NCBI RefSeq assembly: GCF_016591715.1
Contig: NZ_AP024109.1
Coordinates: 3,658,001 to 3,722,000, forward strand
DNA: 64,000 nucleotides
DNA from: Mesorhizobium sp. J8
GTDB lineage: Bacteria; Pseudomonadota; Alphaproteobacteria; Rhizobiales; Rhizobiaceae
Direction of reading: 5' to 3'
A program made the position numbers and the translations under genes. The stretch's first letter is position 1; each line of letters begins with the position of its first letter. The notes beneath the pieces are model-generated. The model made no database searches, was not told the origin of the DNA, and saw only the letters and a program-made list of their open reading frames with translations. Shown here piece by piece: positions 6,529 through 55,578 of the stretch.

Positions 6529-7671
6529 CTACCGGAACAGATATTTCGACACTTCCGGATTGCCGCGGCGCCACATCACATTGTCAAGGAAATAGTGGTG
6601 CACGTTGATGAAGATCAGCACGATGAAGAAGAACAGCGAGGAACCGAGCACCTGCCTGTCGTAGGGGACCAGGGCGGTCAGCACGAACGGGATCAGCCAG
6701 AAGCCGAGATAGCCGAGGGCGGCGCCTCCGATGATGAATCCCAACACCCGCAGCCTGTAGCGAGGGCCGAGGACGGACAGTATTTTCGGCTCCGGATCGC
6801 GCGCCGCATCCGAAACGTCACGCTCGACATTGGTCTGATAGCGCCACACCACAGCCAGATATTGCAGCGAGTGCAGCGCCGGCACCACCAGCAGCCAGAG
6901 CGGGTTTATCCTGGCAATCAGGATCCAGAGATAAAGCGACGCGATATAGGCAACGATACCGTTATACGGCAGGCCGCCATTCTTTCGCCGACGACTGGCC
7001 AGCATCACGAGTGTGGCCGCTGTCGATGCGACGGCCGCCGTCAAGGCAACGTCGGTGGCCCATGAAGGCGCGGCGAAGGTGTAATACTGGAGTCCGTAAT
7101 ACTGTCCTGCGGTCACCGCAGTGTTGGTCTGCAGCCAGGCCAGGATCCACACAGCGTAGCTGTTGACGAGCAACACCTTCTTGTCCCGGTCATCGAAGAA
7201 TTTGCGCTTCAGGACGGCGTCGACCATCAGCATGCCGTAGCCTTGCTTGACGTAGTGCCAGCCGACGAAGAAGAACATCGCATTGGCCGCGAGGCCGAGC
7301 AGCCGCGTGTTCGACGTCGCCGCGCCATAGGCGAAGAACAGGGCCATGATCACCGGAACGATGACGCCGGCGAAAATGTAGCGAAACTGCAGGCTTCGGT
7401 CGTAGCCGTCGCCACGCGCCTTGCGGCCGAAATTGCGATAGAAGATCTGGTAGGAATGGGCGAAATGCGGGTAGTTCACCAGATAGGCCACGACGACCAT
7501 CGTCGCGGCCAGCGGGCCTTCATAATCGCGCGGCACGAAATAAAGCACCGGCAGGATCAGGAACGCGCTGCCGCCGAGCATCAGGAAATCGGCGACCGGG
7601 CCGAAGAGATATCTGCCGGGCGGCGTCGCCGCTTTGCGGGCCGCGGTCTCTACCGAAAGGTCAAGTGCCAT
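6529..7671 (-). CDS. Uncharacterised His-rich polytopic membrane protein
   Basis: This 380-aa protein starts at an ATG preceded by GGAGG and has roughly nine to ten hydrophobic segments. His and aromatic residues cluster at segment ends: NYPHFAHSY near residue 90, GWHYVKQGYGML near 145, PALHSLQYLAVVWRY near 275 and INVHHYFLDNVMWRR near the C-terminus. Such intramembrane His patterns occur in membrane oxygenases, desaturases and haem- or di-iron-binding proteins, but I cannot assign a family. It is convergent with dprA with only 31 bp between stops and appears monocistronic. Confidence 0.85.
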   Translation of the reverse strand: MALDLSVETAARKAATPPGRYLFGPVADFLMLGGSAFLILPVLYFVPRDYEGPLAATMVVVAYLVNYPHFAHSYQIFYRNFGRKARGDGYDRSLQFRYIFAGVIVPVIMALFFAYGAATSNTRLLGLAANAMFFFVGWHYVKQGYGMLMVDAVLKRKFFDDRDKKVLLVNSYAVWILAWLQTNTAVTAGQYYGLQYYTFAAPSWATDVALTAAVASTAATLVMLASRRRKNGGLPYNGIVAYIASLYLWILIARINPLWLLVVPALHSLQYLAVVWRYQTNVERDVSDAARDPEPKILSVLGPRYRLRVLGFIIGGAALGYLGFWLIPFVLTALVPYDRQVLGSSLFFFIVLIFINVHHYFLDNVMWRRGNPEVSKYLFR

Positions 7672-7762
7672 CCTGGAGCCTCCTTCGGGGCCCCGAGTTT
7701 AACCATGCCCCTGTCCAGGGACAAGTTTTGCCCGTGACCGGCACTCACCGTCTTGGGGAAAG

Positions 7763-8011
7763 TCAGCCCTCAGAGCAAGGCAGCCCGGCGATCTTCATCA
7801 GCCGCTTCCGGGCTTCTGCCACGCGCTTCTGTTCCGACCGTATGCGGCTGCACAGCGCGAGGTTGATGCCTACGCCACAGTCCTCGTCCAGCATTTCCTT
7901 TGCGTGATTGAGAGAAGTTTCGGCGCGCTTTACGCTCTGCCTGGCCCTGGCCAGTTCCAAGTTCAGTACGTCCACTGTATCCGCATCCCAAATTGCGGTC
8001 CCTTCGGCCAC
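7763..8011 (-). CDS. Small hypothetical protein, possibly truncated
   Basis: The 82-aa frame starts with GTG and encodes a charged, helix-favouring product (ELARARQSVKRAETSLNHAKEM, then SEQKRVAEARKRL) that could form a coiled coil. No ribosome-binding site is visible at the GTG. The frame is open for a further 11 codons upstream to a TAG near 8045, so the true start, or a lost N-terminal part, is uncertain. Composition is protein-like and unlike the overlapping arginine-rich frames. No family recognised. Confidence 0.45.
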   Translation of the reverse strand: MAEGTAIWDADTVDVLNLELARARQSVKRAETSLNHAKEMLDEDCGVGINLALCSRIRSEQKRVAEARKRLMKIAGLPCSEG

Positions 8012-8509
8012 GCAACGGTCGCGAATGGTTTTTGTTCCGATTGCCTAGGCCATCAAGCTGGCAGCTTTGGCGAAAAGCGCGGTTATTTCCGGAGCAGAGG
8101 CTGGATGGACGCCTTTAGCTGGTCGGCGAGTTGATCCTCCAGGCGCCATCGCCTGCGAACCCTTGCCCGTTTGTTGGGCTTGTACTCGGCAAGCTCGCGC
8201 TGCGCCTTGGCGGTAGGCATTGCGAACATCAAGGGGTCCGTCCGGAGCCCTCTGGACGACGCCGAGGATTATGTTCCTCCGATGCTGACCGACGGCGAGA
8301 CCCCAAGGGCCTCGGCCCTTCATCCGAGCCAGTTTGTTGCCGAAAAAGCCGGATGCCCGAACGGGGCCACCAGCGTGCCCTATCGCGAACCGAGTACCCA
8401 GGGCAATTTACAAAAATGTAAAGCGCCGGCGGCGGCGACCTAATGTCATGGTGGCGGTTGGACTTGGGGAAATTCGGCAAATATGGCCGGGCCGTAGGGC
8501 GGTCGTTGA
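8012..8509. other. Poorly coding gap next to tRNA-Lys
   Basis: About 500 bases between the small ORF ending at 7763 and the tRNA gene hold several short overlapping frames on both strands, none with convincing homology. The best is a 48-codon minus-strand frame (8083-8229, listed separately). TTTAC-N6-GTAAA at 8407-8422 is a small inverted repeat. Base composition is somewhat less GC-rich than in neighbouring genes. Confidence 0.4.
8083..8229 (-). CDS. Possible 48-aa basic small protein
   Basis: A frame from ATG at 8229 (with a second in-frame ATG at 8220) to TAA at 8083 encodes a Lys- and Arg-rich peptide with the core EYKPNKRARVRRRW followed by an amphipathic stretch, LEDQLADQLKASIQPLL. 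The basic and amphipathic layout resembles a small nucleic-acid-binding or ribosome-associated protein. There is no clear ribosome-binding site, and an overlapping 92-codon frame (8045-8323) competes on the same strand. This is a weak call. Confidence 0.3.
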   Translation of the reverse strand: MFAMPTAKAQRELAEYKPNKRARVRRRWRLEDQLADQLKASIQPLLRK

Positions 8510-8585
8510 TGGTGAGCGCGATGGGATTCGAACCCATGACCTACTGATTAAAAGTCAGTTGCTCTACCGGCTGAGCTACGCGCTC
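8510..8585 (-). tRNA. tRNA-Lys, anticodon TTT, CCA encoded
   Basis: Read on the minus strand, a 7-bp acceptor stem (GAGCGCG with CGCGCTC), a D arm with AGCCGGTA loop, an anticodon stem ACTGA/TCAGT enclosing CTTTTAA, a T arm ATGGG-TTCGAAT-CCCAT, discriminator A and a genomic CCA end form a complete cloverleaf of 73+3 nt. The anticodon TTT decodes AAA and AAG lysine codons. No duplicated 3' tRNA fragment that would mark an integration site was seen nearby. Confidence 0.96.
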
Positions 8586-8861
8586 CCGCGGGCTCAAAAC
8601 GCCGCCCTCGAAATTGCGCGGAACATAGGGAGAGTGCCGCGGCCGGTCAACCGGAAAAAGATGGCCTTCCAAGGCCGATTTTTTGAACGGATTCGGGGGG
8701 CGCCGAGGGTGTTTCCGAAGAGCTTTCGATACCGGCGCCAATGATCCGGGTCCGCATTGCGTCAGAAAGCTCCACAACAACGGGTTGATGTAGAAGGGAA
8801 CAATTTGCGACCCGCACCCGTTTCGCAGCGGGGACGTCGATCAACCTCGAGGAGAAGATTA

Positions 8862-9314
8862 ATGAACAAGATCGCATCGGGCCTGCTGGCAACCGCTCTC
8901 TCGGCGTCGTTCGTCGCGGCGGAGGTCGTGCCGGTCAACGCTCAGCCCAACTATGTGCCGCAACCCCAGGGCCTGTCGGATGTCCAGACCGTGCAGTATC
9001 GGGACTGGAGAAGGCATCGCGGCTTCAACCGCGATTTCTCGCGCCGTGGTGACGCCGTCTATTGGAATGGCCATCGCGGCTATCGTGAATATCGCCACGG
9101 CTATCGCCGTCACGGCGACTATTGGTTCCCGCTGGCTGCTTTCGCGACTGGCGCGCTGATCACCGGCGCCATCGTCAACAGTGAAAACAACCGTGTGTAT
9201 CGCGGCAACGCGCATGTGCAGTGGTGCTACGACCGCTATCGCTCTTACCGCGCCTCGGACAACACCTTCCAACCGAACAACGGCCCGCGTCAGCAGTGCA
9301 TTTCGCCCTACTGA
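8862..9314 (+). CDS. BA14K family secreted or surface protein
   Basis: The 150-aa product starts at an ATG preceded by GAGGAGAAG and has a Sec-type signal peptide (positive MNK, hydrophobic core, cleavage after about residue 27). The centre is rich in Arg, His, Tyr and Gly (HRGYREYRHGYRRHGDYW), then a hydrophobic segment (AAFATGALITGAIV). The C-terminus HVQWCYDRYRSYRASDNT...QQC is the BA14K domain. BA14K was described in Brucella as an immunoreactive, lectin-like protein. An inverted repeat resembling a terminator follows. Confidence 0.9.
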   Translation: MNKIASGLLATALSASFVAAEVVPVNAQPNYVPQPQGLSDVQTVQYRDWRRHRGFNRDFSRRGDAVYWNGHRGYREYRHGYRRHGDYWFPLAAFATGALITGAIVNSENNRVYRGNAHVQWCYDRYRSYRASDNTFQPNNGPRQQCISPY

Positions 9315-9346
9315 CGGCCTCCAGTCAATACCCAGGGTCGTTGATT

Positions 9347-9372
9347 GAGCCCGCGCCGCAAGGCGCGGGCTC
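9347..9372 (+). terminator. Hairpin downstream of BA14K gene
   Basis: GAGCCCGCGCC, the loop GCAA and its exact complement form an 11-bp GC-rich stem 32 bp after the stop, followed by TCTCG. The U-tract is weak, so termination efficiency is uncertain, but the position and stem strength are typical of an intrinsic terminator. Confidence 0.6.
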
Positions 9373-9419
9373 TCTCGTGGCATTCAACCGGACTTCAAGA
9401 ACTGAGCGCGCTCCGCGGG

Positions 9420-9889
9420 TCAGCTTGCCCAGCTAACGGTTTTGAGGATCAGATAAAGACCTACCCCGCCATCATCAGGAGGAGAGCGATAGGCTCCGCA
9501 GGCGTTGCAAATCCGAGTCACCGCTGAGGTCAATTTCCAGCCGAGTCCGTCAATATCTTCGTCCGTCACATAGTCTCGGGTGAGCTCGCCGATGCCATGG
9601 TTCTTGCCGAAAGATCGGGCTGATTGCGCGTCAGTTATGAACTCCGAAGGCCAGTACGAGTTTGCCCAAGCCCAGAGCCAGTTGCCTTGGCGCTGGTGGA
9701 GCCCGCGATCTGGATTTCCGAGACGACCTTGACGCCGCTCAGGTCGGAAAACACCAACTTTCCTGCCGTCAAGTCGTAGTTGTAGCGCGACCAACTGCCG
9801 AGGCGGAAATCCTTCGCCAGGCGCGCATTCTTGGCGGTGAGCTGTTCAACGGCCTCATCGCGCCAAGCAGGATACCAATCCGGTTGCAT
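9420..9889 (-). pseudogene. DUF6882-like gene split by an apparent one-base frameshift
   Basis: Two overlapping minus-strand frames make one protein of about 156 aa. The N-terminal part (9889 to about 9690) begins MQPDWYPAWRDEAVEQL and reaches EIQIAGSTSAK. The C-terminal part (about 9689 to 9420) begins GNWLWAWANSYWPSEF and ends LILKTVSWAS. GSxS followed by WLWAWANS is the hallmark of DUF6882 proteins. Adding one G in the AAGGC run at about 9684-9688 joins the frames as GSTSAK-GNWLWAWAN. This is either a recent inactivating deletion or a sequencing error. The function of the family is unknown. Confidence 0.75.
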
Positions 9890-9911
9890 TCTCCCCCAAA
9901 TCCCGAGATCG

Positions 9912-11405
9912 CTACTGCGTGCTCAGCGTCCGGCGCACCGCATCGCGCCATCCGGCCAGCTTCGTCGCGCGTGTTGCGGCGTCCATTTCCGGCTTGAAGC
10001 GCCGCTCAAGCGCCCAGCTCTTGGCGAAATCCTTCGCTTTCGGCCACACGCCGGCCTTCGACCCGGCAAGCCAGGCCGCGCCCAGCGCCGTCGTCTCCAG
10101 GATCGTCGGACGGTCGACCGGCGCGTCGAGAATGTCGGCGAGCCGCTGCATGGTCCAGTCGGACGCCACCATGCCGCCGTCCACCCGAAGCACCGTCTTG
10201 GCCGAGGCGCCTTTCCAGTCCTTGCGCATGGCGTCGAGCAGGTCACGCGTCTGGAAGGCGACCGATTCGAGTGCCGCGCGGGCAAATTCCGCCGGTCCGG
10301 AATTGCGCGTCAGCCCGAAGATCGCGCCGCGCGCGTCGGCGTCCCAATGCGGCGCGCCGAGCCCGACGAAGGCCGGCACCAGATAGATTTGTTGCGCCGG
10401 ATCGGCGCTCGCGGCGAGCGCGCCGCTTTGCTCGGCCTTGCCGATCACCTTGATGCCGTCGCGCAGCCATTGCACGGCGGCGCCGGCGATGAAGATCGAA
10501 CCTTCCAGCGCATAGGTGGTCTTGCCGTTCAACCGGTAGGCGATCGTGGTCAGAAGCCGGTTCCTCGAGCGCACAAGGTCGGCGCCGGTGTTGAGCAGCG
10601 CGAAGCAGCCGGTGCCGTATGTGGACTTCATCATGCCGGGCTCGAAACAGGCTTGGCCGATGGTCGCCGCATGCTGGTCGCCGGCGACGCCGAGGATCCG
10701 CATCTCGGCCCCGAAAAGGCTCTTCTCGGTGACGCCGAAATCGTCGGCGCAGTCCTTCACCTGAGGCAGGATCGCAGCCGGAATCTTGAGGATCGAAAGC
10801 AGCTCTTCGTCCCAGACATTCTTCTCGATGTTGTAGACGAGCGTGCGCGAGGCGTTTGTCGCGTCGGTGGCGTGCACTTGGCCGCCGGTCAGCCGCCAGA
10901 TCAGGAAACTGTCGATCGTCCCGGCGAGCAGTTCGCCCCTCTCGGCGCGCTTCCTGGCGCCCTTCACCTTGTCCAGCATCCAGGCGATCTTGGTGCCGGA
11001 GAAATAGGGGTCGAGCAGCAGGCCGGTCTTCTTCGTGAATTTCTTCTCCAGCCCCTGCTTCTTGAGCTTCTGGCAGAGCGGCGCGGTCCGGCGATCCTGC
11101 CAGACGATCGCATTGTGGATCGGCTTGCCAGTCGTCTTGTCCCAGATCACGACCGTCTCGCGCTGGTTGGTGATGCCGATTGCGGCGACATCGGATGCCG
11201 CGCGGCCTGCCGCCTTCAGCGCGGATTTCACCGTGGCCAGAACGCTTGCCCAGATATCTTCCGGATCATGTTCGACCCAACCGGAGGCCGGATAATGCTG
11301 GGCGAATTCCTGCTGGCCGGCACCTGCGACCTTCATCTTGTCGTCGAACAGGATCGCCCGGGTCGAGGTCGTTCCCTGGTCGATCGCCAGCACAAAACCG
11401 CTCAT
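9912..11405 (-). CDS. glpK: Glycerol kinase
   Basis: GlpK phosphorylates glycerol to sn-glycerol-3-phosphate in the cytoplasm. The 497-aa FGGY-family kinase begins [21 protein letters not shown] with the phosphate-binding DQGTTSTR, and has the glycerol-binding [10 protein letters not shown] and TNQRET, then DGGMVASDW in the second domain. The start at 11405 has GGAGGGATGG just upstream; an in-frame codon eight residues earlier lacks such a site. It is the last gene of the glycerol operon, 90 bp after glpV, with an imperfect hairpin in the gap. Confidence 0.97.
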
Positions 11406-11430
11406 TCCATCCCTCCACTTTTCATGCAAC

Positions 11431-11457
11431 AGGGGAGACGGCCAAGCCGCCTCCCCT
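11431..11457 (-). other. Intercistronic hairpin between glpV and glpK
   Basis: A 12-bp inverted repeat (AGGGGAGACGGC with GCCGCCTCCCCT, one mismatch, loop CAA) occupies the gap. No U-tract follows on the minus strand, so it more likely stabilises or partially attenuates the mRNA than terminates it. That would lower kinase expression relative to the binding protein. The role is inferred from position. Confidence 0.45.
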
Positions 11458-11495
11458 GCATTTCCTACACAGGTCCGCAGGCCTGCGTCATGCAG

Positions 11496-13220
11496 CTACT
11501 TCTGCCAGCTCTTCACCAGCTCGTCGTAGTTGACGGTGATCGGCTTGTCCTTCTCATTCTCGACCTTGAGCTGCGGCGCGAGGTTGCCCTTCGAGACGGC
11601 GTCCTTGTTCCAGTAATCGAGGTCATGCTCCTCGGCCATCTTCGGGCCGATGTCGCCCTGGACGCCCGATTTCTCCAGACGAGAGAGTACCTTCTCCTGG
11701 TCGGCGCAAAGCGAATCCATCGCTTCCTGCGGGCTCTTGGCCCCCGAGGACGCGTCGCCAATGTTCTGCCACCAGAGCTGCGCCAGCTTCGGATAGTCCG
11801 GAACGTTGGTGCCGGTCGGCGTCCACTGCACGCGCGCCGGCGAGCGGTAGAACTCGATCAGGCCGCCGAGCTTCGGCGCACGTTCGGTGAAGCTCTTGTC
11901 GTGGATGGTGGAGTCGCGGATGAAGGTCAGGCCGACCTGGCTCTTCTTCACGTCGACCGTTTTCGATACCACGAACTGCGCGTAGAGCCACGCGGCCTTG
12001 GCGCGATCCGTTGGGGTCGACTTCAGAAGGGTCCAGGAACCGGCATCCTGGTAGCCGAGCTTCATTCCATCCTTCCAGTAGACGCCATGTGGCGACGGCG
12101 CGACGCGCCATTTCGGCGTGCCGTCCTCATTGACGACCGGCAGACCGGGCTTGGCCATGTCGGCGGTGAAGGCGGTGTACCAGAATATCTGCTGGGCGAT
12201 ATTGCCCTGCGAGGGCACCGGGCCGGACTCGGAGAAGGTCATGCCCTGCGCTTCCGGCGGCGCATAGGCCTTCAGCCAATCGAGGTATTTCTGGATGGCA
12301 TAGACCGAGGCCGGTCCGTTGGTGTCGCCGCCGCGGGCGACGCAGGAGCCGACCGGACGCGAATTCTCGTCGACCTTGATGCCCCATTCATCGACCGGTT
12401 TGCCGTTCGGGATGCCCTTGTCGCCATTGCCCGCCATGGACAGCCAGGCATCGGTGAACCGCCAGCCGAGCGACGGGTCCTTCTTGCCGTAGTCCATGTG
12501 GCCATAGACCTTCTTGCCGTCGATCTCACGGCCGGTGAAGAACTGGGCGATGTCCTCATAGGCCGACCAGTTGACCGGCACGCCGAGGTCGTAGCCGTAT
12601 TTCGCCTTGAAATCCGCCTTGTTCTTCTCATCGTTGAACCAGTCGTAGCGGAACCAGTAGAGGTTCGCGAACTGCTGGTCAGGCAATTGGTAGAGCTTGC
12701 CGTCCGGTGCGGTCGTGAACGACTTGCCGATGAAGTCGTCGACGTCGAGCATCGGATCGGTGACGTCCTTGCCCTCGCCGGCCATCCAGTCGGTCAGGTT
12801 GCGCGCCTGCTGATAACGCCAGTGCGTGCCGATCAAGTCGGAATCGTTGACCCAGCCGTCGTAGAGGTTCTGTCCCGTCTGCATCTGGGTCTGGATTTTC
12901 TCGACGACGTCGCCTTCCTGGATGACGTCATGCGTGACCTTGATGCCGGTGATCGCGGAGAAGGCCGGCGCCAGCACTTGTGATTCATACTGGTGCGTGG
13001 TCAGCGTTTCCGAGACCACCTTGATTTCCATGCCGGCGAACGGCTTGGCGGCGTCGATGAACCACTGCATCTGCTTTTCCTGATCGGCGCGCGAAAGCGT
13101 CGACATGTCGCCTATCTCCTTGTCAAGAAAGGCTTTTGCCTCGTCCATCCCGGCATAGGCGTGGCCCGCTCCAAGCAATAGGACAAGGGCGGTCGTGGAT
13201 GTTAGAAATTGCCGTCGCAT
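11496..13220 (-). CDS. glpV: Glycerol ABC transporter, periplasmic binding protein
   Basis: This 574-aa extracellular solute-binding protein has a Sec signal (MRRQFLTSTTALVLLLGAGHAYA), then a large mature domain rich in Trp and Asp. It belongs to the long family 1 binding proteins tied to the rhizobial GlpSTPQUV importer described in Rhizobium leguminosarum. Its place in the operon (between glpU and glpK) and its size match that system. It should capture glycerol in the periplasm for GlpP/GlpQ. Confidence 0.92.
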   Translation of the reverse strand: MRRQFLTSTTALVLLLGAGHAYAGMDEAKAFLDKEIGDMSTLSRADQEKQMQWFIDAAKPFAGMEIKVVSETLTTHQYESQVLAPAFSAITGIKVTHDVIQEGDVVEKIQTQMQTGQNLYDGWVNDSDLIGTHWRYQQARNLTDWMAGEGKDVTDPMLDVDDFIGKSFTTAPDGKLYQLPDQQFANLYWFRYDWFNDEKNKADFKAKYGYDLGVPVNWSAYEDIAQFFTGREIDGKKVYGHMDYGKKDPSLGWRFTDAWLSMAGNGDKGIPNGKPVDEWGIKVDENSRPVGSCVARGGDTNGPASVYAIQKYLDWLKAYAPPEAQGMTFSESGPVPSQGNIAQQIFWYTAFTADMAKPGLPVVNEDGTPKWRVAPSPHGVYWKDGMKLGYQDAGSWTLLKSTPTDRAKAAWLYAQFVVSKTVDVKKSQVGLTFIRDSTIHDKSFTERAPKLGGLIEFYRSPARVQWTPTGTNVPDYPKLAQLWWQNIGDASSGAKSPQEAMDSLCADQEKVLSRLEKSGVQGDIGPKMAEEHDLDYWNKDAVSKGNLAPQLKVENEKDKPITVNYDELVKSWQK

Positions 13221-13256
13221 GTGTCTCCTCCAGTCTTAGGTTGTGAAGTGCGATCC

Positions 13257-13284
13257 GGAGCAGCCGCCAGCACGCGGCCGCTCC
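13257..13284 (-). other. Intercistronic hairpin between glpU and glpV
   Basis: GGAGCAGCCGC pairs with GCGGCCGCTCC (one mismatch, 6-base loop) in the 78-bp gap ahead of glpV. Stems at this position in ABC operons often set the level of the binding-protein message by protecting an mRNA end. No U-run makes it a clear terminator. Confidence 0.45.
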
Positions 13285-13298
13285 GACTATTTCCCCCT

Positions 13299-13586
13299 CT
13301 ATACGTATCGGAACACGCCAACGGCGTAGACCACGGAGAGAGCGAGAGCCCACCACAGGTTGGGTCCTACCAGACCCAGCCAAGCGAGATGGATGAAGGC
13401 GCTGCCGAGCAGCGAAACAAAAAGGCGGTCGCCGCGCGTCGTCTCGAAGCGCAACACGCCGACGCGCGGATTGCCGCCGGGCGAGACATATTCCCAAACG
13501 CCCATGCCGCAGAGCATCAGCGCAATCACGACGAAGAAGGCGGCCGTCGGCCACGTCCATGCCATCCAGGAGAAGTCGAGGTTCAT
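13299..13586 (-). CDS. glpU: Small membrane component of glycerol transporter (DUF2160)
   Basis: The 95-aa product has two to three hydrophobic segments (residues about 12-31, 57-76 and 77-92) and the DUF2160 features FSWMAWTWPTA and WEYVSPGG. It corresponds to glpU of the R. leguminosarum glycerol operon, whose exact role is not known. It sits 3 bp after the glpQ stop. It is too short to be a permease itself and may be an accessory membrane subunit. Confidence 0.88.
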   Translation of the reverse strand: MNLDFSWMAWTWPTAAFFVVIALMLCGMGVWEYVSPGGNPRVGVLRFETTRGDRLFVSLLGSAFIHLAWLGLVGPNLWWALALSVVYAVGVFRYV

Positions 13587-13589
13587 GGC

Positions 13590-14498
<909 letters not shown>

Positions 14499-20110: not shown

Positions 20111-21523
20111 TCAGGACGAGCGCCGCGCAATCTCGGTTATGACGTCGAACGCCGCATCGACATCGGCCGCCGTCGCCTCGAACTGCCCCGCCTGAAAGCG
20201 GATCGCCACGCGCCCATCGACTCGCGTTTGCGTCAGGTAAATGCGGCCATCGGTGTTGATGGCGTCGACGAGGCGGAGATTGTGCTCGTCCGGATCGGCG
20301 CCCGAGGGCGCTTGGTGACGGAACGAGAACAGCGAAAGCATCGGCTCGCTGGCGAGATCGAAATCCGCTTCCCCGGCGAGGCGCGCGGCAAGCCCTGTGC
20401 TCCAGGCGACGTGGTTGCGGATCATGGTGCGCAGGCCCTCGAGGCCATGGGCGCGCAGCAGGAACCAGAGTTTGAGCGCGCGGAAGCGGCGCCCCAGCGG
20501 CACCGACCATTCCGAATAGTTGATGATGCCGTCGTGGCCGCGTGTCTTCAGATAATCCGGCTTGATCGCCAGCGTGCGCACGAGATCCTCCGGCTGGCGC
20601 ACGAACTGGATCGAGCAATCGAACTGGGCGCCGAGCCATTTGTGCGGATTGAAGACGATGGAATCGGCGCCTTCGACGCCCGCCCAGAAATGCCGGTATT
20701 CCGGGCAGATCATCGCCGAGCCGGCCCAGGCCGCATCGACATGCAGGTAAAGCCCATGCCGCTTCGCCACAGCGGCCACCGCGGCGATGTCGTCGGTGCC
20801 GCCGGTGCTGGTGCCGCCGACGCAAGCGATGATGCCTGCCGGCAGCAGACCGGCTTCACGATCGGCAAGGATCGCCGCCTCCAGGGCCGCCGTGTCCATC
20901 GCGCGAAAACGTCCGGAGACCGGGATGCGGACAAGGTTGTCCTCGCCGATGCCCGAGACCCAGATGGCGCGATCGATCGAGGTGTGGACCTGGTCGGAGC
21001 AATAGACGCGCAGCTTGCCCTGTCCGGCCAGCCCCTTCTTGTTTCCCTGCCAGTCGAGCGCCCGCTCGCGCATGGTGAGCACTGCGGCAAGCGTCGCCGA
21101 CGAGGCCGAATCCTGGATGACGCCGGAAAACCCTTCAGGCAGGCCAAGCGCCTGGCGCATCCAGTCGACGATGCGCGTCTCGAGTTCGGTCGCCGCCGGC
21201 GAGGTCTGCCACAGCATGCATTGCGCGGCCATCGCCGAGACCAGATATTCGGCAACCACCGAGACAGGCGCCGCATTGGCCGGGAAATAGGCGAAGAAGC
21301 GCGGATGCTGCCAATGCGTCATGCCCGGCACGATCTTGGCTTCGAAATCGGCGAAGATCTTTTCCATCGGTTCGGGCAATTCGGGCGGCGAGGCCTCGAT
21401 GCTCCTGAAGATTTCCCCCGGCGCGATTGCGGGCCGAACCGGACGGTCACGCAGGCCCGCGCGGTAGTCGGCGCCCCAATCGGCAGCCCGCCGGGACCAG
21501 TCGCGAAATTCCTCATTCTCCAT
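20111..21523 (-). CDS. PLP-dependent amino acid decarboxylase, group II
   Basis: The 470-aa enzyme is of the aromatic-L-amino-acid decarboxylase type: THWQHPRFFAYFPAN near residue 70, DSASSATLAAVL, VHVDAAW-like LYLHVDAAWAGSA, and the PLP lysine in NPHKWLG. It releases CO2 from an L-amino acid, forming an amine such as tryptamine, tyramine or phenethylamine. The substrate cannot be read from the sequence. It stands alone, 124 bp from glpR, with a palindrome upstream of its start that may be an operator. Plant-associated bacteria use such enzymes for amine synthesis, but that is inference. Confidence 0.9.
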   Translation of the reverse strand: MENEEFRDWSRRAADWGADYRAGLRDRPVRPAIAPGEIFRSIEASPPELPEPMEKIFADFEAKIVPGMTHWQHPRFFAYFPANAAPVSVVAEYLVSAMAAQCMLWQTSPAATELETRIVDWMRQALGLPEGFSGVIQDSASSATLAAVLTMRERALDWQGNKKGLAGQGKLRVYCSDQVHTSIDRAIWVSGIGEDNLVRIPVSGRFRAMDTAALEAAILADREAGLLPAGIIACVGGTSTGGTDDIAAVAAVAKRHGLYLHVDAAWAGSAMICPEYRHFWAGVEGADSIVFNPHKWLGAQFDCSIQFVRQPEDLVRTLAIKPDYLKTRGHDGIINYSEWSVPLGRRFRALKLWFLLRAHGLEGLRTMIRNHVAWSTGLAARLAGEADFDLASEPMLSLFSFRHQAPSGADPDEHNLRLVDAINTDGRIYLTQTRVDGRVAIRFQAGQFEATAADVDAAFDVITEIARRSS

Positions 21524-21625: not shown

Positions 21626-22357
21626 CTACCCCGGAAAATCGGGCAGATTTGAAAACGCGATCTTCAGCGCGTTGGACCAGCCATCGGAAATGGTTCGGTA
21701 ATAAGGATCATCCTGGCCGATCCGTCGGTTCAGCCCCACCCTGAGCGCATCCCGTTCCAGGAACAGCAGGTCGAGCGGCAGGCCGACCGAAAGGTTGGAT
21801 TTCAGCGTCGAGTCGAACGACACCAGAAGCAGCTTCACCGTTTCGGCTAGGCTCATTGTCCGGTCATAGGCGCGGATGATGATCGGCTTACCGTATTTCG
21901 TCTCGCCGATCTGGAAGAAAGGCGTGTCGTCGGTCGACTCGATGAAGTTGCCTTCCGGATAGATCATGAACAGCCTGGGCGAGCTGCCCTTGATCTGGCC
22001 GCCTAGGATGAAGGAGGCATTGAAGTAGGAATCCGCCTTGTCGCCGTTCGGCGAGGCATGCTCGATGACTTCCTTGACCGTCTCACCGACCAGCCGCACC
22101 GTCTGGTACATGGATGGCGTCTCGAGCAGCTTGGGATGACGGTCGCCAGCGGCCTTGTTGCGTTCGTCGAGCAGGCTGACCACGGCCTGCGTTGTGGCAA
22201 GATTGCCCGCCGACATCAGCACGATCACGCGCTCGCCCGGCTCTTCCCACACATGCATCTTCTTGAAGGTCGAGATCGAATCCATGCCGGCATTGGTGCG
22301 CGTGTCCGACATGAATACGAGCCCGCGATCGATCTTGAGGCCGACGCAATAGGTCAT
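21626..22357 (-). CDS. Anbu-type proteasome-like peptidase
   Basis: From ATG 22357 the 243-aa product begins MTYCVGLKIDRGLVFMSDTRTNAG, with the candidate N-terminal nucleophile Thr2, Asp in SDTRTN and Lys in STFKKMHV. These are the Ntn-hydrolase residues of the proteasome beta fold. Anbu (ancestral beta subunit) proteins form ring assemblies related to HslV. A longer frame to 22648 is an artefact because the motif starts at Met98. It closes a four-gene set with transglutaminase, alpha-E and ATP-grasp proteins, the usual Anbu neighbourhood. The substrate is unknown. Confidence 0.92.
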   Translation of the reverse strand: MTYCVGLKIDRGLVFMSDTRTNAGMDSISTFKKMHVWEEPGERVIVLMSAGNLATTQAVVSLLDERNKAAGDRHPKLLETPSMYQTVRLVGETVKEVIEHASPNGDKADSYFNASFILGGQIKGSSPRLFMIYPEGNFIESTDDTPFFQIGETKYGKPIIIRAYDRTMSLAETVKLLLVSFDSTLKSNLSVGLPLDLLFLERDALRVGLNRRIGQDDPYYRTISDGWSNALKIAFSNLPDFPG

Positions 22358-22372
22358 GGTCGCTCTTCTGCT

Positions 22373-22416
22373 GAGCAACTCCGGGAAAGGCGTATAGCGT
22401 TTTTTTGCCCGGAATT
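22373..22416. repeat. Palindromic intergenic repeat, degenerate copy
   Basis: GAGCAACTCCGGGAAAG...CCCGGAATTGCG followed by an A-rich tail AAAACAAAGAGATAGAGCGG matches the repeat family but with a decayed stem. It fills the gap between the transglutaminase gene and Anbu. Confidence 0.6.
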
Positions 22417-22491
22417 GCGTGAAAACAAAGAGATAGAGCGGCTCGGCGATTCTATCAAACGCTGAACCCGCCCCCTGCGATTCGAGGCGGA

Positions 22492-23286
22492 TTACTGCTC
22501 TACCGTGACGGTGACGGCAAGCTTCTCTTGCGCCTGCCCCAAGAGTATGCCCGACACTGGCGAGGCGTCGCGATAGTCGCGCCCCGTCGCCACCCGCACA
22601 TAGCGTTCGTCCGGAGAGATACCGTTCGCCGGGTCGAAGGCAACCCATCCGAGCCCGACGACATAAGCCTCGGCCCAGGCATGGCTCGCGGCCTGCTCGA
22701 CGGCCGCATCCATCATCAGGTAGCCGCTGACATAACGGGCGGGAAAACCAAGCGCGCCGGCGGCGGCGATGAAGATGTGGCTGTGGTCCTGACAGACGCC
22801 GGACTTCAGCGCGAGCGCCTCCTCGGCCGGCGTCACGACGCTGGTCGTTCCCGGTCTGTAGGCGACGCGTTCGCGGATCACCCCCATCAACCGGTGCAAT
22901 CGCTCGATCTCGGTGCCCTGCCCGACCGCGCCGGCCAATTCGCGTATGCCCTTGCCGGCAGCGGTGAGCGGCGTCTGCTGTGCGAACAGCCAGAGCGGCG
23001 CAAAGCCCTGATGCGGCCCCGTCACGCCCGCCGTATCATGCGTGGTCACCTCGCCCGCGGCCTCGACGGTGATCGAGTTCCGGCCGCTCTCGGCGCTCAC
23101 CAGCCGTGTGTCGTTGCCGAAATGGTCGGCGAAGCGCACCTCCTCGCGCGCGCCGTCCACCTTGATCGCCCAGGAACCGACTGTCTGCGTGCGCCCGCTG
23201 GAAGGGAGCAGGCGCAACCGCTGCAGCAGGTACTGCACCGGCTGATCGTAACGGTACTCGGTGCGATGGGTGATCTTGAGCCGCAT
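22492..23286 (-). CDS. Transglutaminase-like cysteine peptidase family protein
   Basis: The 264-aa protein has an N-terminal beta region (bacterial transglutaminase-like N domain) and a C-terminal transglutaminase core with the triad C165 (GVCQDHSH), H202 (SHAWAEAYV) and D218 (FDPANG). It lies 21 bp after the alpha-E gene, in the cluster that Iyer and colleagues linked to peptide ligation and cleavage. It probably hydrolyses or transfers an amide bond of the product made by the ATP-grasp protein; direct evidence is lacking. Confidence 0.92.
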   Translation of the reverse strand: MRLKITHRTEYRYDQPVQYLLQRLRLLPSSGRTQTVGSWAIKVDGAREEVRFADHFGNDTRLVSAESGRNSITVEAAGEVTTHDTAGVTGPHQGFAPLWLFAQQTPLTAAGKGIRELAGAVGQGTEIERLHRLMGVIRERVAYRPGTTSVVTPAEEALALKSGVCQDHSHIFIAAAGALGFPARYVSGYLMMDAAVEQAASHAWAEAYVVGLGWVAFDPANGISPDERYVRVATGRDYRDASPVSGILLGQAQEKLAVTVTVEQ

Positions 23287-23307
23287 AGCGCTCGCCCTCG
23301 GCTGTGC

Positions 23308-24249
23308 TCAATAGAACCGGTAGTCCTGGGCGATCTCGTCGCCCAGCCTGGTGTTGTCGCGAATGAACTCGTGCAGGAACTCGTGCAGGCCGTGGTCGAA
23401 TATGTCCTTGATCGAACCCTTCCTCAGCATCGCCTGGATCTTCTCGTAAGTGGCGTGGCAGGCGTGGCGCTCGCCATAGTCGTCGGCGAGAAATTTCAAA
23501 TGCTCGCCCAGGAACCGGTAGCAGAAGGTCAGCGAACGCGGCATGCGCACATTGAGGATCAGATAGTCGGCGATGTTCGTCGGCTTGTAGTCGGCTTCAT
23601 AGACCCAGCGATAGGAGCGATGCGCCGACACCGAACGCAGGATCGACTCCCACTGGTAGTTGTCCAGCGTCGAGCCGACCCAGGACAGCGAAGGCAGCAG
23701 CACATAATATTTCACGTCGAGGATGCGCGCCGTGTTGTCGGCGCGCTCGACATAAGTGCCGAGCTGCGAGAAATCGAAGATCTCGTTGCGCAGCATCGTG
23801 CCGTAGAACGAGCCGCGGATCAGCGCCGTCTCGCGCTTGATAGCGTCGAGCACCGTAGGCAGGTCCCGCTCGTCGATGGGCTTCGCCAGCATGCGCTTCA
23901 GCGACATCCAGGCTTCGTTGATGCTTTCCCAGGTCTCGCGCGTCAGCGCCGTGCGCACCATGCGAGCATTGTTGCGCGCCGTCTCGATCGACGACATCGT
24001 GCTCGAAGGGTTCGAGGTGTCGCGCAGCAGGAAGTCAGAGACGTTGGCGGCGGTGTACTCCTGGTATTTCTGGCTGAAGGCGAGGTCCGAGCCGGCGCTG
24101 AGCAGCACCGAATTCCACTCCTCGGATGCGTCCTGGGTACGCGTCAGCGCCATGCGCAGGCCGGCATCGACGAGACGCGCCATGTTTTCGGCCCGCTCGA
24201 TATAGCGGTTCATCCAGTAGAGACCGTTGGCGGTGCGGCCCAAAAGCAT
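23308..24249 (-). CDS. Alpha-E domain protein
   Basis: This all-helical 313-aa protein begins MLLGRTANGLYWMNRYIERAENMARLVDAGLRM, the signature of the alpha-E family (DUF403). It has no recognised catalytic motif. Alpha-E proteins nearly always occur beside a circularly permuted ATP-grasp and a transglutaminase. That holds here: it lies 92 bp after the ATP-grasp gene and 21 bp before the transglutaminase gene. A structural or substrate-presenting role is assumed. Confidence 0.92.
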   Translation of the reverse strand: MLLGRTANGLYWMNRYIERAENMARLVDAGLRMALTRTQDASEEWNSVLLSAGSDLAFSQKYQEYTAANVSDFLLRDTSNPSSTMSSIETARNNARMVRTALTRETWESINEAWMSLKRMLAKPIDERDLPTVLDAIKRETALIRGSFYGTMLRNEIFDFSQLGTYVERADNTARILDVKYYVLLPSLSWVGSTLDNYQWESILRSVSAHRSYRWVYEADYKPTNIADYLILNVRMPRSLTFCYRFLGEHLKFLADDYGERHACHATYEKIQAMLRKGSIKDIFDHGLHEFLHEFIRDNTRLGDEIAQDYRFY

Positions 24250-24270
24250 CTCAGCTTGCTCCGGTGTCGA

Positions 24271-24298
24271 GCGAATAGCGAATAGCGAGTAGCGAATA
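24271..24298. repeat. Four tandem heptamers, GCGAATA type
   Basis: Units at 24271, 24278, 24285 and 24292 read GCGAATA, GCGAATA, GCGAGTA and GCGAATA. The array lies in the gap between the ATP-grasp and alpha-E genes, just upstream of the alpha-E start on the minus strand. Seven-base tandem arrays can change length by slippage and so alter the spacing of an mRNA leader. Confidence 0.8.
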
Positions 24299-24341
24299 GG
24301 GAGGATTGCGTTTCATGATTGCTGCGCCCCCCCTGCTCATC

Positions 24342-25778
24342 TCAATCATCCAACACCCAAGTGTCTTTCGTGCCGCCACCTTGTGATGAGTTCACAACCA
24401 GCGAACCTTCCTTCAAGGCAACGCGCGTGAGGCCGCCGGGCACGATCTGGATACGGTCCGAAACCAAGACGTATGGCCGAAGGTCGACATGGCGCGGCGA
24501 CAGGCCCTTTTCGGTCAGGATCGGGCAGGTCGAGAGCGCGAGCGTCGGCTGGGCGATGTAGTTGGAGGGTTTCGCCTGCAGCTTCTTGGCGAATGCCTCG
24601 CATTCCTTCTTGGTCGCCGCCGGTCCCACCAGCATGCCGTAGCCGCCGGAGCCGTGCACTTCCTTGATCACCAGCTCGCCGATGTGCTCCAGCACATATT
24701 TGAGGCTATCCGGCTCCGAGCAACGCCAGGTCGGGATATTGCCCAGGATCGCCTTGCGGCCGGTGTAGAACTCGACGATCTCCGGCATATAGGAATAGAT
24801 CGCCTTGTCGTCGGCGATGCCGGTGCCGGGCGCATTGGCGATGGTAATGTTGCCCGCGCGGTAGACATCCATGATGCCTGGGACGCCGAGCGCCGAGTCC
24901 GGCCGGAACGTCAGCGGATCGAGGAAGGCATCGTCGACGCGCCGGTAGAGCACGTCGATCTGCTTGTAGCCTTCGGTCGTGCGCATCGCCACATGGCCGT
25001 CGACGACGCGCAGATCCTGCCCTTCCACGAGTTGCACGCCCATCTGGTCGGCGAGGAAGGCGTGCTCGAAATAGGCCGAGTTGTAGGAACCCGGCGTCAG
25101 CACCGCGATGGTCGGCGTGCCTTTGGCGCTTTGCGGCCTGACCGCCGCCAGCGACTGGCGCAGCAGCTGCGGATAGTTCTCGACCGGCCGCACCTTGATC
25201 TTCTGGAACAGCTCCGGAAAGAGCTGCATCATCGTCTCGCGGTTCTCCAGCATATAGGAGACGCCGGACGGCGTGCGGGCATTGTCCTCCAGCACGTAGA
25301 ACTCGTTCTCCGAGATGCGCACGATGTCGACGCCGATGATATGTGTATAGACGCCGGCCGGCGGCCTGACGCCGATCATCTCAGGCAGGAAGGCCTCGTT
25401 CCTGGCGATCAGATCCTTGGGCACCCGCCCGGCGCGCAGGATCTCCTGGCGATGGTAGATGTCGTCGAGGAAGGCGTTCAGCGCCTGCACGCGCTGTTCG
25501 ATGCCTTGCGTCAGCCGCCGCCATTCCTGGCCGGAAAGGATGCGCGGGACGATGTCGAAAGGGATCAGCCGCTCGGAAGCTTCCTGCTCGCCATAGACGG
25601 CAAAGGTGATGCCGGTCTTGCGGAAGACGCGCTCGGCGTCCTGCATCTTCTGGGTGAGCCTGGCCGGGTCCTGCTCCTTCAGCCAGCGATCGTAAGCCTC
25701 ATAAGGTCTTCTCAATCCGGAGACTTCCGGAAGCATTTCGTCGAACGCTGCCAATCGCGTACTCCCCTCTGAAGCCAT
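24342..25778 (-). CDS. Circularly permuted ATP-grasp protein
   Basis: The product of about 478 aa contains GLRRPYEAYDRWLKEQ, ERVFRKTGITFAVYGEQ, the RVDDAFLDPLTFRPDS block and GSGGYGMLVGP, hallmarks of the circularly permuted ATP-grasp family (COG2308) predicted to act as amidoligases. It should use ATP to join an amino acid or peptide to an amine; the substrate is not known. The start is uncertain: ATG 25778 is used here, ATG 25811 adds 11 residues, and a TTG after GAGGGGAG is possible. First gene of the four-gene Anbu cluster. Confidence 0.9.
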   Translation of the reverse strand: MASEGSTRLAAFDEMLPEVSGLRRPYEAYDRWLKEQDPARLTQKMQDAERVFRKTGITFAVYGEQEASERLIPFDIVPRILSGQEWRRLTQGIEQRVQALNAFLDDIYHRQEILRAGRVPKDLIARNEAFLPEMIGVRPPAGVYTHIIGVDIVRISENEFYVLEDNARTPSGVSYMLENRETMMQLFPELFQKIKVRPVENYPQLLRQSLAAVRPQSAKGTPTIAVLTPGSYNSAYFEHAFLADQMGVQLVEGQDLRVVDGHVAMRTTEGYKQIDVLYRRVDDAFLDPLTFRPDSALGVPGIMDVYRAGNITIANAPGTGIADDKAIYSYMPEIVEFYTGRKAILGNIPTWRCSEPDSLKYVLEHIGELVIKEVHGSGGYGMLVGPAATKKECEAFAKKLQAKPSNYIAQPTLALSTCPILTEKGLSPRHVDLRPYVLVSDRIQIVPGGLTRVALKEGSLVVNSSQGGGTKDTWVLDD

Positions 25779-25917: not shown

Positions 25918-26154
25918 TCAGAACGCCCGGAAGGTCACGATGGTGAAGGTGTCCTTGATTCCAGGCAGAACCTGCACCCGCTCGTTGACGAAGTGGCCGA
26001 CATCTTCCTCGTCGTCGATATAGAATTTGGCGAGCAGGTCGTAATTACCGGCGGTCGAGTAGATTTCGGAGGCGATCTCGGCATCGGCGAGCGCGCTGGC
26101 GACCTCATAGGACTTGCCCAGGTCGCACTTGATCTGCACGAAAAATGCCTTCAT
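25918..26154 (-). CDS. Stand-alone Lrp/AsnC ligand-binding domain protein
   Basis: The 78-aa product contains only the C-terminal RAM (AsnC_trans_reg) fold: MKAFFVQIKCDLGKSYEVASAL, then YSTAGNYDLLAKFYIDDEED and VQVLPGIKDTFTIVTF. It lacks the helix-turn-helix of full Lrp proteins. Such short proteins bind small molecules or modulate full-length Lrp proteins by mixed assembly. The gene is isolated between the ATP-grasp and DUF4864 genes. Confidence 0.9.
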   Translation of the reverse strand: MKAFFVQIKCDLGKSYEVASALADAEIASEIYSTAGNYDLLAKFYIDDEEDVGHFVNERVQVLPGIKDTFTIVTFRAF

Positions 26155-47830: not shown

Positions 47831-47942
47831 TAAGGGCAAATCCGGCAATCTTCGCGGCGATCGTAACGTAATCGATACTTCCTTGCTGCACTAATGGACC
47901 TACGTCAGGTTGCAGAAGCCCGGCGCCGGCAAGGACGCGTGC

Positions 47943-49088
47943 ATGCTGCTCGACTACAATTCATTGCTTCTGGCCGTCGGCTTCTCCGCCGCTTGCCTCA
48001 GCCTTACCTTGTTCGGAACCTGGATGGCCGCACGTTCCGACAAGTTCCTTTTGACCTGGGCGGTCAGCGTGCTGGTCGTGGTGGTCGAGGTCTTTGCCTA
48101 TGACGCCTATATCGCAAGGCCCGGAACGGCGCTCGGTGTGCTGACGCTGGCACTGCTCTTGCTCGGCTTCTCGGTCATGCTGGGTGCTGCCCATCAATTC
48201 AGGACAAGACGCTCGCCCTTGCCGCTGATCGCGCTCGGCGCCGGAATTTCCTATGCTCTCGCGCTGCCGCCCATGGCGCTCGGCTATGACGGCCTGGGCT
48301 TCATGCTGGAAAACGCCTTGGCCGCGCTGCTCTTGTTCGGAACCGCCTATGAATATTGGCGGGGCCGCGCCGAGGCGCCTGTCCATCTCATCGGCGTGGC
48401 ATTGCTCTATTCGCTGACCGCGGCCTCCTTCGTGCTGTGCGCGGCCGTGCTGGCATGGGACGGCAGGCTCATCCTCGGGCACGCGCCGAGCAACTGGGCG
48501 GAGGATCTAAGCCTCGTCATCGTCATCGCCTCCATGACCGGCATCGGCGCATTGTCCCTGGCGCTCAACCAGGGGCGGCACGCCCGCCATCATCAGCGCG
48601 AGGCGCAGACCGACGCCTTGACCGGTCTGCTCAACCGCCGCGCTTTGTTCGATTTGCACGGCAAGACGCCCATCGGCGCTTTTACGGCGGTGGTGGTTTT
48701 CGATCTCGACGGCTTCAAGGCCATCAACGACCAGTTCGGCCATGCCGCCGGCGACGGGGTGCTCAAGGTCTTTGCCGAGGTGCTCTCCGCCGACCTGCGC
48801 CCGAACGACTCCGTCGCCCGCATGGGTGGCGAGGAATTCGCCATGGTGCTGAGGCGCACCTTGCCCGAGACAGCCGAGGCGACGGCCGAACGTGTCAGAG
48901 CCGCGTTCGCCGCGCGTACCGTCGAGACGGAGACTGGGCCGTTGCGCTGCACGGTCAGCGCCGGCTTCGCCTTCGGCAGCACGGATGGCATGAGCTTCGA
49001 CAAGGTCCTCAGCGCCGCCGACAAGGCGCTCTATGCCGCCAAGCGCGGCGGCCGCAACCGCGTGCTCGACTTCCGCCGTGCCGGTTGA
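47943..49088 (+). CDS. Membrane-bound diguanylate cyclase (GGDEF)
   Basis: The 381-aa protein has about six hydrophobic N-terminal segments (residues 1-215) and a C-terminal GGDEF domain from about residue 225 (DALTGLLNRRALF). The active site is GGEEF near residue 295, with the inhibitory I-site RPND nine residues before it, so it should make cyclic-di-GMP and be product-inhibited. The start at 47943 is preferred because it begins the first membrane segment. No EAL domain. Confidence 0.93.
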   Translation: MLLDYNSLLLAVGFSAACLSLTLFGTWMAARSDKFLLTWAVSVLVVVVEVFAYDAYIARPGTALGVLTLALLLLGFSVMLGAAHQFRTRRSPLPLIALGAGISYALALPPMALGYDGLGFMLENALAALLLFGTAYEYWRGRAEAPVHLIGVALLYSLTAASFVLCAAVLAWDGRLILGHAPSNWAEDLSLVIVIASMTGIGALSLALNQGRHARHHQREAQTDALTGLLNRRALFDLHGKTPIGAFTAVVVFDLDGFKAINDQFGHAAGDGVLKVFAEVLSADLRPNDSVARMGGEEFAMVLRRTLPETAEATAERVRAAFAARTVETETGPLRCTVSAGFAFGSTDGMSFDKVLSAADKALYAAKRGGRNRVLDFRRAG

Positions 49089-49654: not shown

Positions 49655-50350
49655 TTAGACTGTCAGGAACTTCCGCACATCCGCTCTATCAAGGTCTTCG
49701 GCCGGCCCGGTATGCACGATCTGGCCGCGATCCATGATGTTGACCTCGTCGGCAAGCTCGCGGCAGAAGTCGAGATATTGCTCGACCAGCAGCACGGCGA
49801 TTCCCGCTTGGTCGCGCAGATAGCGGATGGCGCGGCCGATATCCTTGATGATCGAGGGCTGGATGCCTTCGGTCGGCTCGTCGAGCACCAGGAGCTTCGG
49901 CCGCATCACCAGCGCGCGGCCGATGGCGAGCTGCTGCTGTTGGCCGCCGGAAAGGTCTCCGCCTCGCCGCGACAGCATCTGTTTCAGCACCGGGAACAGC
50001 TCGAAGACATAGGCCGGAATGGTGCGGTCGGCACGCCTGAGCGGCGCGAAGCCGGATTCCAGGTTCTCGCGCACCGTGAGCAGCGGAAAGACTTCCCTGC
50101 CCTGCGGCACGAATGCGATGCCCGACCGGGCGCGATCATACGCCGCGCTCCGGTCGAGCGCCTTCCCCTCGAAGGCAACGCTTCCGCTCGTCAGCCGGTG
50201 ATGGCCGACGATCGATCTCATCAAACTGGTTTTGCCGACGCCGTTGCGGCCGAGCACGCAAGTGATCTTGCCGGCGCCCGCCTTCAGCGAAACGCCGCGC
50301 AGCGCCTGGGCGGCGCCGTAATGCAGCGTGGCATTGGAGACTTCGAGCAT
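49655..50350 (-). CDS. urtE: Urea ABC transporter ATP-binding protein UrtE
   Basis: The 231-aa ATPase begins MLEVSNATLHYGAAQALRGVSL with Walker A GRNGVGKTS, signature LSGGQQQQLAIGRAL and Walker B LLVLDEPTEG. It is a LivF-like short ATPase. The last gene of the urt operon, it pairs with UrtD to drive urea uptake. A longer frame to 50623 is an overlap artefact. Confidence 0.95.
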   Translation of the reverse strand: MLEVSNATLHYGAAQALRGVSLKAGAGKITCVLGRNGVGKTSLMRSIVGHHRLTSGSVAFEGKALDRSAAYDRARSGIAFVPQGREVFPLLTVRENLESGFAPLRRADRTIPAYVFELFPVLKQMLSRRGGDLSGGQQQQLAIGRALVMRPKLLVLDEPTEGIQPSIIKDIGRAIRYLRDQAGIAVLLVEQYLDFCRELADEVNIMDRGQIVHTGPAEDLDRADVRKFLTV

Positions 50351-50420
50351 GGTCAGCCCCTTCTCCAGCGCTTCAGGAAAGCGAAATCGAAACGATGGAA
50401 CGGAACCCGCCAGATCATGC

Positions 50421-51167: not shown

Positions 51168-51173
51168 GACCGC

Positions 51174-54010: not shown

Positions 54011-54036
54011 TGTCGTCTTCAAGCCAGCTTTCTCAA

Positions 54037-54080
54037 GCAATTCCAGAAAATGTGTGAAGCGGTTTTCCGTCGGGAATTGC
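54037..54080. repeat. Palindromic intergenic repeat
   Basis: GCAATTCC (54037-54044) faces GGAATTGC (54073-54080), with an inner AGAAAA/TTTTCC stem around TGTGTGAAGCGG. It lies in the leader gap between urtA and urtB, on the path of the operon transcript, where it could fold as RNA. Confidence 0.85.
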
Positions 54081-54209
54081 GCCAACTAGGTTTCGGGATC
54101 TTGCCCGGGCGGACCGAAATGGCCCGCCCGGGCAGCGGTCTAGGATCGTGGGGCCACTCCTCGATCCGTCAGACCTGGGAGGACTTGGGGACCTAAGTCC
54201 GGGCCGGGA

Positions 54210-55517: not shown

Positions 55518-55542
55518 ATGACACGCTCCCAAGCTTGGTTGT

Positions 55543-55567
55543 TTGCACCGCAATATGAGCGGTGCAA
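55543..55567. promoter_or_regulatory. Perfect inverted repeat in the urtA leader
   Basis: TTGCACCGC (55543-55551) and GCGGTGCAA (55559-55567) are exact complements with a 7-base spacer. The half-sites TGCACC/GGTGCA resemble NtrC sites, but the arms are 11 rather than about 5 bases apart, and the repeat overlaps the -12 element. It may be an atypical operator or an mRNA hairpin. Confidence 0.5.
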
Positions 55568-55578
55568 GCGACGTGCCA
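55563..55578 (-). promoter_or_regulatory. Sigma-54 (-24/-12) promoter of urtA
   Basis: On the minus strand TGGCAC (55578-55573), 5 bases and TTGCA (55567-55563) match the RpoN consensus TGGCACG-N4-TTGCA. GG and GC are exactly 10 bases apart. It places the start of transcription about 35 bases before the urtA ATG. Sigma-54 control fits nitrogen-regulated urea uptake. Confidence 0.82.

Follow-up and report, generated by a model that had tools for sequence, protein, structure and literature searches.

We analysed a stretch of 64,000 nucleotides from Mesorhizobium sp. J8 (the window; NCBI RefSeq assembly GCF_016591715.1, contig NZ_AP024109.1, positions 3,658,001 to 3,722,000 of the forward strand), which carries a complete and intact Anbu operon. 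In transcription order, its genes encode a circularly permuted type 2 ATP-grasp protein (AG), an alpha-E protein (AE), a transglutaminase-like protein (TG) and the proteasome homologue Anbu, all on the minus strand (Table 1). Of the four, AG and AE seem to make up the core and minimal unit of the operon. The original proposal that the Anbu neighbourhood is a peptide or amide system is said by later papers to be that of Iyer in 2009, and the question of what the operon does dates from its proposal in 2008-2009. The window cluster is this published Anbu operon and not a new system. An earlier note, made from the DNA sequence alone, had called it a proposed peptide or amide system without a defined substrate, and the literature agrees: the four-gene operon is in print as a proposed system for peptide or amide synthesis and degradation, without a defined substrate (PMC5666114, PMC6376114).

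Genes of the Anbu operon

The four gene identities given in the earlier note were confirmed by Pfam matches for all four proteins (Table 1) and by solved relatives for three of them. Sequence searches linked AG to 3n6x (E 6.5e-198), TG to 3isr (E 5.8e-14) and Anbu to 5loy, 5nyj, 5nyf, 5nyw and 5lox (E 8.7e-95 to 5.8e-66), while the best match of AE to a solved structure reached only E 0.47. The note was also right that the set is complete and lies on one strand, with gaps of 92 bp between AG and AE, 21 bp between AE and TG and 134 bp between TG and Anbu. Its idea that completeness makes this locus specially useful is less well supported, since the four-gene set is common. The Anbu gene starts at the ATG at 22357 (MTYCVG..., without leader or propeptide), where a mechanical list of open reading frames (ORFs) had placed the start at 22648. 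The proteins agree with the genus: AG shares 99% identity with its counterpart in Mesorhizobium sp. B4-1-3, and Anbu shares 93% with the one in Mesorhizobium sp. B3-1-6.

The catalytic residues that the earlier note had picked out in TG and Anbu are present and near-invariant in relatives. Across 126 aligned rows, C165 of the TG triad is kept in 121, H202 in 125 and D218 in 124. Thr2, Asp18 and Lys33 of Anbu, counted from the Met, are kept in 112, 113 and 113 of 113 rows. They correspond to Thr1, Asp17 and Lys32 in the numbering from Thr1, which would be exposed by removal of the Met. AG has E164, N166, K372, a Gly-rich loop at 378-381, D432, R434, R452 and N463, all conserved in 146-147 of 148 rows, which by comparison with the ATP-grasp superfamily would form its ATP/metal site. 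Crystal structures of Anbu are available (PMC5666114, PMC6376114), and an Anbu-1 S1 pocket of T20, F30, T/S48, L52 and S/T55 is distinguished from the basic pocket of Anbu-2 (PMC5666114). The window Anbu has T20, F30, S48, L52 and T55 at these positions, a predicted pocket that fits Anbu-1 and not the basic Anbu-2 type.

AE has the helical character and the conserved ER motif of the alpha-E family, and its two halves resemble each other. When the halves were aligned with hhalign, using 24 family sequences, the match had a probability of 99.0 and an E-value of 3.2e-18, against about 1 in reversed-column controls. Each half bears an ERA[ED]N-x-AR motif, as ERAENMAR at 18-25 and ERADNTAR at 168-175. 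The Glu and Arg positions of the motifs are conserved in 142-147 of 148 rows (E18 in 145, R19 in 147, E168 in 147 and R169 in 144), except Glu21, which is Glu in 138 rows and Asp in 7. Judged from these alignments, AE is an internal duplication. The AlphaFold2 model is all-helical, with a mean predicted local distance difference test score (pLDDT) of 88.9 and a predicted template modelling score (pTM) of 0.88, and it gave no confident match among solved structures.

The AG-AE pair and its optional partners

We determined how often the four families occur together among 299 sampled Pseudomonadota genomes, a single sample that, unlike the set of 148 loci described below, is free of fetch bias. 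Profiles matched Anbu in 102 genomes, AE in 156 and AG in 157. AG was present in every AE genome (156/156), and AE in all but one of the AG genomes (156/157). The sole exception has a weak AG match (E 2.5e-4) in a genome that is 85% complete. The AG-AE pairing is thus obligate. The 148 fetched loci gave the same picture, with AE near AG at all 149 AG hits, although AE itself had served to fetch many of them. One AG, split over two frames (L131), counts twice among the 149 hits and was dropped from the AG tree. Within 6 kb, the neighbourhoods were AG-AE-TG-Anbu at 84 hits, AG-AE-TG at 35 and AG-AE-Anbu at 8, while the other 22 contained genes of the type found at a second locus described below. 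The grouping of the four genes is thus no accident, but since most loci were fetched through Anbu or AE, these shares are not natural frequencies. The median gap between AG and AE over the 148 loci is 2 bp, the median gaps that follow are 12 and 32 bp, and natural AG-AE fusions occur. Given the obligate pairing and these fusions, the most likely unit is a ligase made of two parts, AG and AE.

Anbu nevertheless follows this core. Both AG and AE are found in 101 of the 102 Anbu genomes, with a Fisher P for the co-occurrence of Anbu with AE of 1.6e-37, a value that overstates the evidence, as the genomes are related. The remaining Anbu genome (G094, locus L080) has no AG, AE or Bact_transglu_N match. 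Of 103 places with Anbu, 82 are within 12 kb of AG, 14 (in 13 genomes) are elsewhere, and 7 were left unclassified. One could read Anbu as a general ATP-independent peptidase that merely shares an operon with AG, AE and TG, which would then do something else. The solitary Anbu of G094, the 14 unlinked places and the many AG-AE pairs without Anbu (55 of 156 genomes with AG and AE) all agree with this. However, Anbu is hardly ever found in a genome without AG and AE, and all 13 genomes with an unlinked Anbu still contain both, although shared ancestry weakens any P value. On balance, we give such independence little credence. In several genomes of one family, the Anbu away from AG adjoins mutS, which we read as plain synteny.

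Anbu and TG are naturally dispensable, optional members of the operon. On a FastTree phylogeny of AG (147 rows), the state of Anbu as an adjacent gene switches 13 times or more, with nine or more of these switches forced by well-supported branches, and the presence of TG changes at least three times. Among the 32 named loci without an adjacent Anbu, 14 genomes were tested, of which 13 have no Anbu anywhere and one has it elsewhere. In two Mesorhizobium relatives (G194 and G197), Anbu had no match anywhere in the genome, while AG, AE, TG and the genes on either side are all kept; between TG and the decarboxylase gene that follows it, no trace of Anbu rose above noise. Four genomes (G031, G102, G284 and G288) contain AG-AE-Anbu and no Bact_transglu_N match. 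In a further genome (G186), the Bact_transglu_N match is below the cut-off, and three Aureimonas genomes have TG relatives elsewhere in the genome. At one locus (L103), a stretch of 52 residues in antisense orientation resembled Anbu weakly (E 0.003).

Because Anbu and TG are dispensable in nature, the accumulation of a product in their mutants is not required. The earlier note had made such accumulation part of the test of its proposal, and that test is weak given the genomes that lack one partner or the other.

Nitrogen control, neighbouring genes and a second locus

We scanned the 250 bp upstream of AG for sigma54-type sites, with expectations taken from random windows of the same loci. In a genus-diverse set of 68 upstream regions, mostly one per genus, 15 had a site with at most one mismatch (0.13 expected), and 26 had one when up to two mismatches were allowed (1.93 expected). 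An initial scan, which covered 146 regions and used Markov shuffles for comparison, had given 18 regions with at most one mismatch where 1.0 was expected. NtrC-like dyads at a control P of at most 0.05 accompanied seven of the 28 promoters examined (1.4 expected). Outside AG, there was no support for shared promoters: one of 13 unlinked Anbu genes had an upstream sigma54-type site with two mismatches, and the rest had four or more, or no site. No site was found in any of the 20 rows of the Mesorhizobium group. As a positive control, the same scan recovered the perfect sigma54 -24/-12 site that lies at 55578 in the window, upstream of urtA, which belongs to a complete urea transporter operon (Table 1). 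A second perfect sigma54-like site, at 48148 on the plus strand, lies inside an ORF at 47910-49088 with a GGEEF-type motif by eye, the true start of which may be downstream. A search for sigma70-type promoters around the window cluster was uninformative (two found, 1.3 expected).

Published data also connect these genes to nitrogen. In an ntrC mutant of Burkholderia cenocepacia, expression of an AG-AE-TG cluster is down 8.2-, 9.4- and 9.4-fold (PMC5491218), and Anbu is induced in nitrogen-limited Pseudomonas putida (cited in PMC5666114 and PMC6376114). COG3484 is listed in a predicted sigma54 regulon (PMC12316311), and in metagenomes the operon domains correlate with urea metabolism (PMC3597751). 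In line with this, the predicted promoters suggest that nitrogen control is widespread in the family, with the window species itself lacking the sigma54 site.

Nitrogen control is one of the points that speak for protein tagging and degradation in the manner of pupylation; tagging has been proposed before (cited in PMC6376114). AG and AE would link proteins to a tag consisting of an amino acid, an amine or a peptide, TG would edit this tag, and Anbu would degrade the tagged proteins, so that amino acids are recycled in nitrogen starvation. The adjacency of a proteasome homologue and an amide ligase fits such a scheme, as does a structural study of Anbu that favours a protease role (PMC5666114). 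Yet a small tag gene inside the operon can be rejected, the median gaps leaving no room for one, although a tag could be encoded elsewhere. No unfoldase gene was seen among the conserved neighbours (ORFs of at least 70 residues, 82 loci), and more than a third of the AG-AE genomes have no Anbu to degrade anything. In another species, an Anbu bait is reported to have caught no specific partner and no operon partner (PMC6376114). We therefore regard tagging as unlikely.

De novo clustering of the same 82 loci revealed no conserved fifth gene beside the operon across lineages. The widest neighbour cluster, an ABC ATPase, occurs at 18 loci, and only four of its members are within 1.5 kb of an operon gene. 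In the window, AG is preceded by a gene for a stand-alone Lrp/AsnC-type ligand-binding domain, and Anbu is followed by one for a putative pyridoxal phosphate (PLP)-dependent decarboxylase, for which no NCBIfam equivalog scored above its cut-off. Lrp/AsnC-type neighbours are found at 14 of the 16 loci from Mesorhizobium and near kin (L116-L131) and decarboxylase neighbours at 12 of them, while neither occurs at the other 64 named loci (L132-L195). Both neighbours are confined to this group and are candidate operon members only. The gap between AG and AE (24250-24341) bears a short repeat, CTACTCGCTATTCGCTA, with one other copy in the genome (two in total); the same gap spans 460-480 bp in L101, L117 and L125.

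The decarboxylase raises the possibility of a small-molecule amide of a polyamine or biogenic amine, like glutathionylspermidine, with the amine supplied in Mesorhizobium by the adjoining enzyme. Its gene is on the same strand as the operon and is kept in both relatives without Anbu, and 3n6x, the closest solved relative of AG, is labelled a putative glutathionylspermidine synthase. A label in the Protein Data Bank (PDB) is not a tested function, though, and the restriction of the decarboxylase neighbour to one group counts against this reading. An amide of this kind seems improbable.

The second locus of the same genome (L035) encodes a TG-DUF2126 protein that is a putative amidoligase, an AG-AE fusion and a TG, and no Anbu. 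In 11 rows of such fusions (10 distinct, the Mesorhizobium one being counted twice), E164 and K372 are each kept once, and N166, G378, G379, G381, D432 and N463 are never kept. Conversely, each of these ATP/metal-site residues is found in 68-69 of 69 rows of unfused AG. The fused copy is thus probably not an ATP-dependent ligase, which fits with the other, putative amidoligase encoded next to it.

Table 1. Features of the Anbu operon, its surroundings in the window and the second locus
Feature	Coordinates	Strand	Description
AG	24342..25778	-	478 residues, predicted amide ligase; Pfam CP_ATPgrasp_2, E 2.9e-167
AE	23308..24249	-	313 residues, all-helical, two tandem halves; Pfam Alpha-E, E 1e-92
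TG	22492..23286	-	264 residues; Pfam Transglut_core, E 5.1e-24, and Bact_transglu_N, E 8.9e-20
Anbu	21626..22357	-	243 residues; Pfam Proteasome, E 1.1e-7
Stand-alone Lrp/AsnC ligand-binding domain	25918-26154	-	78 residues, no helix-turn-helix; 139 bp upstream of AG; Pfam AsnC_trans_reg, E 6.5e-12
Putative PLP-dependent decarboxylase	20111-21523	-	102 bp downstream of Anbu; Pfam Pyridoxal_deC, E 2.9e-96
urtABCDE	49655-55598	-	Complete urea ABC transporter operon; each gene above NCBIfam cut-off
Second locus (L035)	7518-14270 (G000, about 5.46 Mb)		TG-DUF2126 protein (1116 residues, putative amidoligase), AG-AE fusion (803 residues) and TG; Bact_transglu_N proteins; no Anbu

Proposed function and comparison with known systems

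Our preferred explanation, to which we give a probability of roughly 50%, is that AG and AE together make up an ATP-dependent amide ligase in two parts that serves nitrogen economy, with TG and Anbu as optional hydrolases in a standard Anbu operon. AG would phosphorylate a carboxylate, which an amine would then attack, while AE may bind or present one of the ligation partners. For the ATP-grasp of the Yersinia bercovieri operon, release of phosphate from ATP has been reported (PMC6376114). Separately from each other, TG and Anbu would hydrolyse or transfer amide bonds of the product, or of whatever is made from it, and either enzyme could be dispensed with. The system would serve nitrogen economy, as may be indicated by the sigma54-type promoter that precedes AG in much of the phylum. 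In Mesorhizobium this promoter is missing, and the position directly upstream is taken instead by the stand-alone domain, which is of a putatively amino-acid-sensing type. The parts of this scheme that we infer are the contact between AG and AE, the ligase reaction in this species, the role of AE, the order of the steps and a function of the upstream domain in sensing.

Several points weigh against this explanation. Two groups obtained no peptidase activity of Anbu on the peptides they tried (PMC5666114, PMC6376114), and Fuchs et al. see protein degradation as a more likely role for Anbu than peptide synthesis (PMC5666114). We found no paper in the open-licence PMC literature that names a substrate or product of the operon. 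The absence of TG was judged by Bact_transglu_N only. Upstream of AG in the window, the best sigma54-type match has three mismatches, at -372. Enrichment was also weaker in a set of 77 upstream regions from named loci, with two sites of at most one mismatch (0.13 expected) and 11 of at most two (1.85 expected). Finally, promoters in the genus-diverse set occur both with an adjacent Anbu (18 of 53 loci) and without one (8 of 15), which makes the control a property of AG-AE that carries no information on Anbu.

A bolder combination of these elements would cast AG and AE as a protein-modifying ligase under nitrogen control whose products Anbu degrades. Such a system would be the proteobacterial equivalent of pupylation, working without a protein tag and recycling amino acids when nitrogen is short. 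The duplicated AE would represent a novel type of subunit for presenting substrates, and the fused AG-AE would be a catalytically dead copy retained as a scaffold for the DUF2126 amidoligase. We consider it quite doubtful that all of this holds together.

If AG and AE are the minimal unit, as in the ligase explanation that we prefer, the substrate and product are best sought there, which narrows the question posed by the Anbu operon. Mesorhizobium provides close relatives with and without Anbu in one gene setting, while the duplication in AE and the apparently dead second copy supply concrete structural hypotheses.

Among known systems, the window cluster is most like the Anbu operons of Pseudomonas, Yersinia and Hyphomicrobium, with which it shares the four families, their order on one strand, the tight spacing and the active-site residues of Anbu. 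It differs from them in lacking a sigma54-type promoter upstream of AG, as does its genus (0/20 rows), and in having the Lrp/AsnC-type domain and the decarboxylase as neighbours. The second locus shares the AG, AE and TG families with the window, whereas its AG is fused to AE and has lost the ATP/metal-site residues, TG-DUF2126 is adjacent and Anbu is missing. In the Pup-proteasome system of Actinobacteria, an amide ligase and a proteasome-type hydrolase are likewise tied to nitrogen stress, but the Pup ligase belongs to another superfamily than the window AG, and counterparts of its tag gene and unfoldase were not found in the gaps or among the neighbours of the Anbu operon loci surveyed. The NtrC/sigma54-controlled DUF404/407-DUF403-transglutaminase cluster of B. 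cenocepacia (I35_5080-5083) has the AG, AE and TG families in common with the window (PMC5491218). As described there, it includes a large transglutaminase protein and lists no homologue of the proteasome, whereas Anbu is present in the window and AG there has no sigma54 site.

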